The position numbers were made by a program, and so were the translations under genes. This document shows positions 7,498 to 12,177 of a stretch of 64,000 nt of DNA, in pieces; the first letter of the stretch is position 1; every line of letters starts with the position of its first letter. This stretch comes from Carboxydocella thermautotrophica (GTDB lineage Bacteria; Bacillota; GCA-003054495; Carboxydocellales; Carboxydocellaceae), in the NCBI GenBank assembly GCA_003054495.1, contig CP028514.1, positions 2,372,001 to 2,436,000 of the forward strand. The letters run 5' to 3'. The notes beneath the pieces are model-generated. The model saw nothing but the letters and a program-made list of their open reading frames with translations, was not told where the DNA came from and searched no databases.

Positions 7498-9186
7498 ATG
7501 CCAGAGAAACACGAGAAGAACAAATTTAGCATAACTGTGTGCGGGGAGTTTTTTCCGGAGATTTACCCGACTCACCGGTCTTCGAAGTGGAGCCGGGGCG
7601 AAGAAGACCCGCTGACTACGGAGATGCGTCTCTTCTGTGCCTGTATGCGGTGGGCCTTTAACCGGCTCCTGGAAGGTGCTTCCCGCCATGAAATCAAGAA
7701 GTCAGGACAAGAACTTTTCGGGCTGAACTCCCGCTTTGTCGATGACTCCAGACTTAAAGCACAGGCCCTGCTGGACTCCCAAACAGAACTGCTGAAGTTA
7801 AAAAATGAAGAAACAGAAAAGAAACTGGGCCGGGCCAGGAAGAAACTCAGCCTGGCCATGAGGAAGCTGGCGAAGGCAGAGAAAAAAGGGGCTGCACCAG
7901 AAGATATTGAAAAGCTCCGCCTGGCAGTCAAGGGGCGGAACAAGCGGGTGGTTTCACTGGCAAAAAGGCTGGCTGAACTGAAGGATTACCGGGAGAAGGG
8001 TACAATACCAAAGGTAGTCTTTGGGGGCAGAAGGCTGTGGGAAAAGGTCTGCCAGGGCCGGGCCGCCCGTGAGGAATGGCGGCATGCCCGCAGGAACCGC
8101 CTCTACTCCCGGGGAGACGAGAGCAAGGGAGGCAACCCCAACATTAAGATATTTTATGACGGACAGGACTTCCGCCTGGCGGTTTCCCTCTCCCACCTTT
8201 CTGAACAGACAGGCATAGATAAACTTGGACGCCCCAGGATGAGCCAGGCCCCCAGGGTTGAGGGTAAGTTGTGGCTGCCGGAAAAACACCGGGAACTGGT
8301 GCAGATATGGCTGGCCATGAAGTTACCCTATGCGGTAGAACTGATCCGCACCCTGGAAGGACGCTATTTGGTACATTTGACATTTGAAGTGGTCAGGGTG
8401 ATGGAACCGGACTTTGCTAAAGGTTGTCTGGCTATAGATACAAACCCTGATGGGGTAGCCCTGTGTAACGTTAGTGCTTCCGGCCAGCCGGAGCCGTGGC
8501 CGGAGGGTTTTAATATTCCTTATCCCGGCAACCTGGGCAAGTATGAAGGAGAGTTTCAGGTTATCCCTTACCCGAACGGCTTTCTTTATATCAGAATACC
8601 AGACTTAGCCCATGCTTCCAGCTTCCGGCGTAGCTACCTGATAGGCGTTTTAGCTAAAGTAGTGGTAGATATAGCTTTCTTTTCAGGCAAACCCATTGTT
8701 TTAGAAAACCTGAACTTTGGCAAAGACAGGCTGGACACTAATAAAAAGTTTAACCGCATGGCTTCCAATTTTCCATTTGCGAAAATGGTAGGAGCAATGT
8801 ATCGGAGAGCGACAAAAGAAGGGGTGCCTTTCAAGTTAGTATCACCCCGGCATACTTCAACCATAGGTTACTGGAAGTATATGAAACGTTACGCCGTTCC
8901 GGTGCATTGCGCGGCGGCACTGGTTACAGGACGCCGGGCAATGGGGTTCAGGGAACGGGTGACTGAAGAACTCAGGCAACTGGTATCGCAAATCAAGCAA
9001 AACCTGACCCGGAAGGATAATCCTGATAGACCTGGGGAAGGAAAAGGGATGACCCGTGGGGTCAGGGCCTGCTTGAGGCGGCTGGAGGAGAGGCTTCCTG
9101 TGCATAACGGGCTTGCCCAGAGTGAGCAGGAGGCGTATAACTCCGTCTGGTCTGACCTGAAGTTATTGGCCCTGTCCGTACGGTGA
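7498..9186 (+). CDS. TnpB-like RNA-guided nuclease homologue with altered RuvC site
   Basis: A 562-residue protein related to the TnpB proteins of IS605/IS607 elements. The N-terminal half is basic with a long charged coiled coil (about 100-165). RuvC-I is visible as CLAIDTNPDG with Asp314 and RuvC-II as KPIVLENLNFGK with Glu403. The C-terminal part, SPRHTSTIGYWKYMKRYAVPVHCAAALVTGRRAMG, corresponds to the TnpB stretch from the Thr-Ser motif to RuvC-III, but the four-Cys zinc ribbon is absent and the usual Asp of the AD-x-NAA motif is His470. A tail of about 80 residues follows. TnpB cuts DNA guided by an RNA made from the element's right end. Whether this variant is a nuclease, a nuclease-dead binder or something else cannot be decided here. 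It follows an IS607-type stub, has a strong promoter upstream and a structured region downstream. Confidence 0.85.
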   Translation: MPEKHEKNKFSITVCGEFFPEIYPTHRSSKWSRGEEDPLTTEMRLFCACMRWAFNRLLEGASRHEIKKSGQELFGLNSRFVDDSRLKAQALLDSQTELLKLKNEETEKKLGRARKKLSLAMRKLAKAEKKGAAPEDIEKLRLAVKGRNKRVVSLAKRLAELKDYREKGTIPKVVFGGRRLWEKVCQGRAAREEWRHARRNRLYSRGDESKGGNPNIKIFYDGQDFRLAVSLSHLSEQTGIDKLGRPRMSQAPRVEGKLWLPEKHRELVQIWLAMKLPYAVELIRTLEGRYLVHLTFEVVRVMEPDFAKGCLAIDTNPDGVALCNVSASGQPEPWPEGFNIPYPGNLGKYEGEFQVIPYPNGFLYIRIPDLAHASSFRRSYLIGVLAKVVVDIAFFSGKPIVLENLNFGKDRLDTNKKFNRMASNFPFAKMVGAMYRRATKEGVPFKLVSPRHTSTIGYWKYMKRYAVPVHCAAALVTGRRAMGFRERVTEELRQLVSQIKQNLTRKDNPDRPGEGKGMTRGVRACLRRLEERLPVHNGLAQSEQEAYNSVWSDLKLLALSVR

Positions 9187-10409: not shown

Positions 10410-10871
10410 TTACTTTAAGCCGGCAAAATTGTTTTGCCGCAAAGCTTCATAAACTACTACCGCCACCGCATTGGAAAGATTGAGACTGCGGGCATCTTCC
10501 CGCATGGGCAGGCGAATGCGGTGATGGGGACGGGCTGCCAGCAATTCTGCCGGCAGCCCTTTGGTTTCCTTGCCAAAGAGGAGAAAATCCCCCGGCCGAT
10601 AGCTGACTTCCGTATGCCAGACACTGCCCTTGGTGGTAGCCAGCCAGAGGGTTTTACCCCCGTGCACAGCCAGGAAATGCTCCAGGTTATCATAATGATG
10701 AACATCCAGCAGGTGCCAGTAATCCAGGCCCGCCCTTTTCAAGGAACGGTCATCCACGGAAAACCCCAGGGGATGAACCAGGTGCAGGCTAGCGCCGGTA
10801 GCAGCACAGGTACGGGCAATATTGCCGGTATTCTGGGGTATTTCCGGCTCGACCAGAACGATATTAAACAT
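10410..10871 (-). CDS. trmL: tRNA (cytidine/uridine(34)-2'-O)-methyltransferase
   Basis: A 153-residue SPOUT-fold methyltransferase. MFNIVLVEPEIPQNTGNIARTC at the start is the TrmL signature, and the C-terminal knot that binds S-adenosylmethionine appears as LLFGKETKGLP and IRLPMREDARSLNLSNAVAVVVYEA. TrmL methylates the wobble ribose of tRNA-Leu isoacceptors. ATG 10871 is preceded by GGAGAGG and overlaps the end of the phosphorylase gene by 8 bases, so the two are translationally coupled. A longer frame beginning at 10931 is not needed. Confidence 0.95.
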   Translation of the reverse strand: MFNIVLVEPEIPQNTGNIARTCAATGASLHLVHPLGFSVDDRSLKRAGLDYWHLLDVHHYDNLEHFLAVHGGKTLWLATTKGSVWHTEVSYRPGDFLLFGKETKGLPAELLAARPHHRIRLPMREDARSLNLSNAVAVVVYEALRQNNFAGLK

Positions 10872-11706
10872 CCTTTTCCTCTCCTTGCATCTCCTTGAGC
10901 AAAGTCGGTTTGCGCAAATCAGCACAACCACACTCTCTGGCGGCAGGGGCTGCCGCCAGAGCTTCCAGTAATATGGCGCCTATACGCTGACTCTGGCCGT
11001 AGAACAGCTCCTTTAGCTCTTCATGCTCCCAATCCTTGATAATTCCTTCCGCATAATTGACCACCAGATCCACCCGGGCATAACAGGCGCCAATCTCCCG
11101 GGCCAGATACACCTCCGGACAGATGCTCTGTCCAATCACATCAGCCCCGGCCAGCTTTAAGAGCTGCACTTCCGCCGGGCTTTCAAAATGACGGCCATCA
11201 GTACAGGCATAGATAGAGCGATCAAACACCCGTCCGGCTGCGTATTTTTCCGCCGCCTGAACCAGTAGTCGACGCAATTCCGGACAGAGGGCCTGCCGCA
11301 TTACCAGCAAATAACGGCCATCCAGTTCCACATCCTTGCGCATGGACTGGTCGATATAATCATTGGGTATTACTACATCCGCTGGCCGCAAGAGGTGATT
11401 GACTGACCCCACCCCTCCTTCGGCCAGCACTGTATGTACTCCAGCCTCCCGCAAGACCCAGAACACCTGGCGCGAAGCATCAGCCCGGCTCACTCCCCGC
11501 CGCCAGCCATGCATACGGCAGGTCAGCACTTTTTTCTCCCCCAGCTGGAAATAGGTAAAAGGCGGTGAACTGCCCCAGGGGGTAGCAAAAACCAGGTCTT
11601 CCGCAATAATCTCCAGGCCCGGCCAGGGCAAGTCCCGGGGAAAGGAGATGGAATTGGTACTGGAACCGCCAATTATAGCCCATTGTGCTACAGGTATATT
11701 AGCCAA
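10864..11706 (-). CDS. Methylthioadenosine phosphorylase-family protein
   Basis: A 280-residue member of the trimeric MTA/purine nucleoside phosphorylase family. Recognisable landmarks are IGGSSTNSI at the phosphate loop, the central HG in CRMHGWRRG, TDGRHFESPAEVQLL, and GADVIGQSICPEVYLAREIGACYARVDLVVNYAEG, which matches the family segment GADVVGMT..PE..LARE..ICYA. Several usually invariant residues differ (Gln-Ser for Met-Thr in the last motif; SRADASRQV in the NYRAN region), so the substrate may be MTA, methylthioinosine or another nucleoside. The start is TTG 11706, chosen for the AAAGGAGG eight bases upstream. Its control region is shared with the divergent HPr gene and contains 21-bp repeats. 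Confidence 0.85.
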   Translation of the reverse strand: MANIPVAQWAIIGGSSTNSISFPRDLPWPGLEIIAEDLVFATPWGSSPPFTYFQLGEKKVLTCRMHGWRRGVSRADASRQVFWVLREAGVHTVLAEGGVGSVNHLLRPADVVIPNDYIDQSMRKDVELDGRYLLVMRQALCPELRRLLVQAAEKYAAGRVFDRSIYACTDGRHFESPAEVQLLKLAGADVIGQSICPEVYLAREIGACYARVDLVVNYAEGIIKDWEHEELKELFYGQSQRIGAILLEALAAAPAARECGCADLRKPTLLKEMQGEEKDV

Positions 11707-11732: not shown

Positions 11733-11872
11733 ACCACTCAACTTATTATTTTAACCGTTCACCCCCAAAAAACAACCGTTTACCCCAAATTTTTTTCCGT
11801 TTACCCCCTTGTCAAACGTCGGTGAATGGTAGTAAAATAAAGGTGAACGGTAGATATTCCACCTTGAATGGT
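11733..11872. repeat. 21-bp-periodic operator array between mtnP-like and HPr genes
   Basis: Three direct copies of the core ACCGTTYACC start at 11754, 11775 and 11796, spaced exactly 21 bp; a weaker copy (ACCACTCAAC) lies at 11733, again 21 bp away. Three inverted copies (GGTGAATGGT, GGTGAACGGT, CTTGAATGGT) start at 11821, 11842 and 11863, also 21 bp apart. The two arms face each other across a promoter -35 at 11809-11814. The period equals two turns of DNA, so a repressor or activator could line up on one face. Confidence 0.75.
11809..11838 (+). promoter_or_regulatory. Promoter of the HPr gene inside the operator array
   Basis: TTGTCA (11809-11814), 18 bases, TAAAAT (11833-11838). The -35 lies at the symmetry axis of the operator arms and the -10 lies between the first two inverted copies, so bound protein would compete with or contact RNA polymerase. 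Confidence 0.65.
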
Positions 11873-11910: not shown

Positions 11911-12177
11911 ATGGTTCAACAAACTGCCGCTGTGAAAAATCCTACCGGCTTGCACGCGCGGCCAGCCGCATTACTGATCCAGGCTGCCAGCCGTTTTAAA
12001 GCCGATATCCGACTGGCCAAAGGCGAAAAAGAGGTAGATGCCCGCAGCCTGATGGGCATCCTTACTTTAACCGCCCGGCCCGGTGATATTCTTACAGTGA
12101 AAGCTAGTGGTGAAGACGCAGCACAGGCCGTAGCAACCATCACAACTCTGGTCCAGTCTCCTTTAGATGAAATGTAA
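11911..12177 (+). CDS. ptsH: HPr-family phosphocarrier protein
   Basis: An 88-residue protein covering the full HPr fold. His15 lies in the active-site motif TGLHARPA and Ser46 in DARSLMGIL, the site used by HPr kinase in Firmicutes. It could therefore act both as PTS phosphocarrier and as a CcpA co-regulator. No EI, EII or HPr kinase gene is in the window, so its partners are elsewhere or it serves only regulation. ATG 11911 was chosen because GGGAGGGG is 5 bases upstream; the longer frame from 11884 has no such site. It is divergent to the MTA phosphorylase homologue and is followed by a strong terminator. Confidence 0.93.
   Translation: MVQQTAAVKNPTGLHARPAALLIQAASRFKADIRLAKGEKEVDARSLMGILTLTARPGDILTVKASGEDAAQAVATITTLVQSPLDEM

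Follow-up and report, generated by a model that had tools for sequence, protein, structure and literature searches.

The 64,000-nucleotide stretch of DNA analyzed here (the window) carries a ladder of short repeats between the divergent genes for an MTAP-like protein and for the phosphocarrier HPr, which raises the questions of which gene the ladder serves and which regulator reads it. Seven copies of GAAYGGT, or ACCRTTC in the other orientation, form two mirrored halves around an axis at 11813, and all steps between same-strand copies are exactly 21 bp. The features of the region are as follows.

10864 to 11706, minus strand: nucleoside-phosphorylase-superfamily gene, MTAP-like (PF01048), the divergent neighbor
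11733 to 11742, plus strand: weak outer copy ACCACTCAAC, core GAGTGGT on the minus strand
11754 to 11763, plus strand: copy ACCGTTCACC
11775 to 11784, plus strand: copy ACCGTTTACC
11796 to 11805, plus strand: copy TCCGTTTACC, one mismatch
11809 to 11814, plus strand: -35 hexamer TTGTCA of the HPr promoter, on the mirror axis
11821 to 11830, minus strand: copy ACCATTCACC (GGTGAATGGT on the plus strand), within the -35/-10 spacer; its GAATGGT ends two bases before the -10
11833 to 11838, plus strand: -10 hexamer TAAAAT of the HPr promoter
11842 to 11851, minus strand: copy ACCGTTCACC (GGTGAACGGT on the plus strand), just 3′ of the -10, near the start site
11863 to 11872, minus strand: copy ACCATTCAAG (CTTGAATGGT on the plus strand), core GAATGGT intact, in the HPr leader
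11911 to 12177, plus strand: gene for HPr, PTS phosphocarrier (PF00381)

A first-pass annotation of this DNA had described a symmetrical array of the longer core ACCGTTYACC with strict 21-bp spacing. The symmetry and the spacing are borne out by the copy positions, the mirror axis and shuffling controls. Three pairs of copies at 21 bp with at most two mismatches each were observed in the intergenic region, where 5000 dinucleotide shuffles gave 0.0006 on average, and 60 shuffles of the whole 64-kb window gave 0 such pairs. The array is real and lies far above chance. Its sequence was described less accurately. The core is exact at 11754 and 11775 on the plus strand and at 11842-11851 on the minus strand, whereas the copies at 11796 and 11821-11830 have one mismatch each, and the outer copies at 11733 and 11863 differ from it at 3 of 10 positions. 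Relative to the shorter core GAAYGGT, the copy at 11863 is perfect and that at 11733 has one mismatch. The copies are non-palindromic direct repeats, too short for the settings of a generic repeat search, which for that reason did not detect the array. The exact 21-bp steps support the earlier view that this is a regulator-binding array presented on one DNA face with two-turn spacing.

HPr is most likely the regulated gene. TTGTCA and TAAAAT, with a spacer of 18, form the only sigma70-like promoter found in the intergenic region, and this promoter reads toward HPr; one match of this kind is in itself unremarkable (shuffle mean, 0.5). The -35 had already been placed on the axis at 11809-11814, and it indeed lies there, paired with a -10. 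Conservation of the repeats in a relative, which the first-pass annotation had named as a test, came out in its favor. In G002, which belongs to another family of the same taxonomic order and whose HPr is only 68% identical, the HPr-side copies are kept: CGGCGAATGGTAGTAAACTTATGGTGAACGGT is present upstream of HPr together with three further copies. The left-half copies of G002 are degraded or lost, and an ion-channel-like gene separates the phosphorylase gene from the array and HPr. This pattern argues that the element belongs mainly to HPr.

The MTAP-like gene is probably a bystander or a lineage-specific addition. Its product scores 113 bits against the TIGR01694 MTAP model, far under the cut-off of 275, and no arrays were found when orthologous MTAP-like loci (approximately 60% identity) were scanned. 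The left half of the array could nevertheless be a second, mirrored repressor-type promoter for this gene, which would make the whole a true divergent switch acting on both genes. This would add to the assignment to HPr rather than compete with it, and we consider it possible but somewhat doubtful. The exact mirror symmetry speaks for it, as does a TTGACA readable leftward at 11816-11811. However, our search of the intergenic region revealed no sigma70-like promoter directed at the phosphorylase gene and no good leftward -10, and both the array-free orthologues and the loss of the left copies in G002 argue against it.

We searched the genome that contains the window for further arrays by pattern. 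Within two mismatches, the HPr locus is the only three-copy array. Relaxing the limit to three mismatches yields a second credible array, at G000:C1:2159855-2159904, with spacings of 21 and 20, directly 5′ of a gene for a GNAT acetyltransferase (L038); a GNAT gene of the related genome G001 likewise has an array. HPr and this one GNAT gene are thus the only clear cases. Single 10-mers are at background (23, versus 21 in a reversed control), and a two-copy search with mismatches returned 27 matches, fewer than its reversed control (60). Only arrays of at least three copies are therefore informative, and weak candidates with two copies, at acs, an MFS gene, two acyl-CoA ligase genes and a KorA-like gene, are mentioned as leads only.

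A search of 399 related genomes for three GAAYGGT copies at 21 bp, with at most two mismatches, identified arrays in 51 genomes from about 20 families. The adjacent genes include pduL (phosphate propanoyl/acetyltransferase family), in several families, and those for pyruvate:ferredoxin oxidoreductase (PFOR), acetate-CoA ligase (acs), a CstA-family transporter, an acetate uptake transporter (satP), an L-lactate-type MFS transporter, GlcD, acetyl-CoA hydrolase/transferase, aldehyde:ferredoxin oxidoreductase and GNAT proteins. In the taxonomic order to which the window genome belongs, HPr adjoins arrays. By their annotated functions, these targets form a coherent set for acetate, pyruvate and lactate metabolism rather than for nucleoside or sulfur salvage. 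The carbon-control link proposed earlier was judged right, whereas the companion link to nucleoside and sulfur salvage is supported neither by these sites nor by the MTAP-like orthologues, which lack arrays. Among eight additional named genomes that had not been used to derive the motif, three (an Acididesulfobacillus, a Peptococcaceae strain and a Desulfosporosinus MAG) had one match each, all upstream of pduL. The consensus of 144 copies is G-N-Y-GAAYGGT-N-G-W-W-W, and of 19 additional copies beyond the imposed triplet, 9 cluster at 20 to 22 bp. Two short genes, L147:3115-3639(+) and L152:403-960(-), directly precede cstA in array-bearing loci; a Pfam search of their products (174 and 185 aa) gave no match, and a new CstA partner protein is a possibility.

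Which protein reads the array? Contrary to the initial impression that the layout was without precedent, direct repeats at 21 bp are a hallmark of LytTR regulators. LytTR sites in general consist of 9- to 11-nt repeats with 11- to 13-nt spacers (PMC4847170), and the window array is made of tandem imperfect repeats of approximately 8 to 11 bp at a pitch of about 21 bp. In Escherichia coli, the yjiY fragment GACCGCTTACATCCCTAAAATAACCACTCAG, to which BtsR/YehT binds, holds ACCGCTTA and ACCACTCA at a distance of 21 bp (PMC4847170). The half-site ACC[GA]TT[CT]A resembles both, and the first 8 bases of the weak copy at 11733 are identical to one of these BtsR half-sites, ACCACTCA. AlgR recognizes CCGTTCGTC and, at rhlI, which it represses, CCGTTCATC (PMC4064291); CCGTTCACC matches the latter at 8 of 9 positions. 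According to the literature, a shared half-site consensus is not required for LytTR sites. CoxC is a LytTR repressor acting on three direct repeats that overlap a -35 (PMC11347149). A LytTR-regulator gene is also present in the genome and co-inherited with the sites. From these similarities, we predict that the array is a conserved LytTR-type operator with an unusual mirrored layout.

The closest known counterparts are the E. coli pyruvate systems BtsS/BtsR and YpdA/YpdB, which likewise combine a LytTR response regulator with 21-bp direct repeats (PMC4847170), the BtsR half-site being nearly equal to ACC[GA][CT]T[CT]A, and which include CstA-family and MFS carboxylate transporters among their targets (PMC4847170, PMC5552118). 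Each of these systems, however, has two repeats, one known target and activation only, whereas the present arrays have three to six repeats, many metabolic targets, promoter overlap and a kinase without a 5TM-LYT domain. AlgR of Pseudomonas shares the core CCGTTCGTC/CCGTTCATC, the use of both orientations and a repressed target, rhlI, with its site at -28 (PMC4064291), but its sites are often single or irregularly spaced and lie at other genes. CoxC of Afipia represses PcoxB from three direct repeats over a core promoter element (PMC11347149) but is a membrane-bound one-component CO sensor with another repeat sequence.

The window genome encodes three LytTR response regulators, and the best candidate is the product of G000:C1:1972217-1973002, a receiver plus LytTR domain protein whose gene is not adjacent to the HPr array. 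LytTR proteins occur in all 40 array-positive genomes tested, compared with 18 of 32 array-negative ones. In a tree of 89 rows, a single clade accounts for a regulator from 35 of these 40 array genomes and contains the candidate itself, and a protein of this main clade is the sole LytTR regulator of G001, G187 and G351. The core motifs FFRTHRCYIVN, NGTYTLIVxD and SEVPVSR are well conserved in the clade. Orthologues of the candidate, searched in the same 399 genomes at E ≤ 1e-70, were found in 78: 38 of the 51 array genomes versus 40 of the 348 others (Fisher p = 1.3e-20), or 19 of 21 genomes when arrays are limited to at most one mismatch (p = 7e-13). These p values ignore shared ancestry and are hence optimistic; the positives nonetheless span about 20 families. 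In the 40 genomes with an orthologue outside the array set, there is no three-copy array at the search stringency. Conversely, the arrays of genomes that lack it (e.g., G023, G031, G139, G169, G219, G335 and G376) look, judged by sequence, mostly like chance matches or unrelated repeats. In G031, the GAAYGGT triplets at L138:559-760 lie within a duplicated unit of approximately 156 bp, likely an unrelated repeat.

The candidate is encoded with its own kinase, which has His_kinase and HATPase_c domains, as in LytS/LytTR two-component systems. This kinase has a GAF/SpoVT_C-like domain and, by sequence, two apparent N-terminal membrane segments. It gave no match to 5TM-5TMR_LYT, the domain present in the cstA-linked kinase of the same genome, and it thus differs from BtsS/BtsR-type sensors. 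Its signal may be a small carboxylate or an acyl-phosphate, which is a guess. Elsewhere in the genome, the gene L036:14862-15713(+), which by sequence presumably encodes a methylenetetrahydrofolate reductase, lies between the genes for a LytS-type kinase and its LytTR response regulator. Two similar 562-aa proteins that look TnpB/transposase-like by eye are encoded at 7498-9186(+) in the window and at L037:4962-6650(-), near the candidate regulator operon.

Since all three own regulators have LytTR domains, the array might instead be read by one or both of the others (L036:2994-3752, beside cstA, and L036:15715-16470) or by all three. In G243 and G341, which have only more distant LytTR relatives outside the main clade, arrays occur near a LytTR gene and cstA (in G243, L152, the array is beside both), and the G243 locus and that of the cstA-linked own regulator are alike in combining a large LytS-type kinase with cstA. 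We nevertheless find this unlikely, because genomes with a single LytTR protein carry one of the main clade, co-occurrence with the main-clade orthologue is strong, and no array (at most two mismatches per half-site) is present near the other two regulator genes. Still less probable is that a non-LytTR protein owns the array and that the LytTR link arose indirectly through shared lineages. A 21-bp pitch is not unique to LytTR, as AraC-type regulators can also use half-sites spaced by about 21 bp, and the phylogenetic linkage of the genomes inflates the statistics. Against this stand the match to AlgR and BtsR half-sites, the breadth of about 20 families in which every array genome tested has a LytTR protein, and the few arrays that adjoin LytTR genes, such as that between acs and a LytS/LytTR operon in G221 (L148); a scan of LytTR gene neighborhoods showed no general excess of arrays (7 versus 5 in the control). 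The regulator that the first-pass annotation had left without identity is narrowed to the LytTR response regulator family, with a candidate gene. We regard it as likely that the array is a multicopy operator for a LytTR-type response regulator, the foremost candidate being the orthologue group of C1:1972217-1973002.

Promoter geometry was our sole guide to the sign of regulation. In the pduL, HPr and GNAT promoters, a GAAYGGT copy occupies the spacer between the -35 and the -10, in most cases two bases short of the -10, and the start site and leader hold additional copies; in the PFOR promoters, the copies start right after the -10. Bound at such positions, a regulator should occlude the polymerase in a repressor-like manner. 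At the acs, cstA, satP and MFS genes, the copies lie upstream in the ACCRTTC orientation relative to the gene, and the last core is frequently followed, about 12 to 15 bp on, by the start of a -35-like hexamer, which suggests an activator-like arrangement. The upstream ACC copies of the HPr promoter stop just 7 bp short of the -35 rather than 12 to 15, and by its layout this promoter belongs to the repressor-like class.

We propose that one LytTR domain would bind each ACCRTTYA/TRAAYGGT copy and that neighboring copies, two helical turns apart, would favor cooperative binding along one DNA face. At HPr, the active regulator would fill the GAAYGGT ladder over the -35/-10 spacer, the start site and the leader; because the copies occupy these positions, transcription should be blocked, and lowered HPr would reduce PTS traffic. 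One could also imagine that the repeats act in RNA, as a 5′-leader element of the HPr mRNA, given that leader copies are in gene sense at HPr, pduL and GNAT and that the G002 HPr leader has further copies. This is highly improbable: the first copy is part of the spacer between the promoter hexamers, a mirrored set occupies the opposite strand in the window, the copies at acs-type genes are inverted and precede the -35, and a 21-nt pitch fits two turns of DNA.

On the operator model, the inverted copies that precede the -35 at acs, satP, cstA and the lactate-type MFS gene, which serve the uptake and activation of acetate or lactate, would lead to activation, at least in other species, and the cell would turn from using PTS sugars and forming acetate to scavenging acetate, lactate and pyruvate. 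A broader proposal, to which we give even chances, is that Clostridia-related Firmicutes share a widespread, so far undescribed “acetate switch” regulon controlled by one LytTR two-component system. Placed upstream of the -35, its 21-bp array would activate scavenging genes (acs, acetate/lactate/pyruvate transporters); flipped over the -10, the same array would repress fermentation genes (pduL, PFOR, HPr), the mirrored HPr/MTAP array being an extreme case. We found no published LytTR regulon of acs, pduL or lactate genes in a literature search that covered few subscription papers. The analysis ties an orphan motif to a named regulator family with a candidate gene. It also proposes a conserved acetate/pyruvate/lactate control circuit for anaerobic Firmicutes, a group in which little is known about such control. 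Because the geometry can be read as activator- or repressor-like, the model allows a prediction of regulatory sign for each promoter, and the long arrays of three to six copies offer a natural system to study cooperative LytTR binding.

The sign does not follow from the gene, since pduL occurs in both arrangements: in some lineages its arrays overlap the promoter, and in others they lie upstream in the activator-like form. The latter are seen at pduL of Acididesulfobacillus/Desulfosporosinus-type genomes (L293, L294 and L295), opposite to other lineages, and an evolutionary flip of the regulatory sign at pduL is possible.
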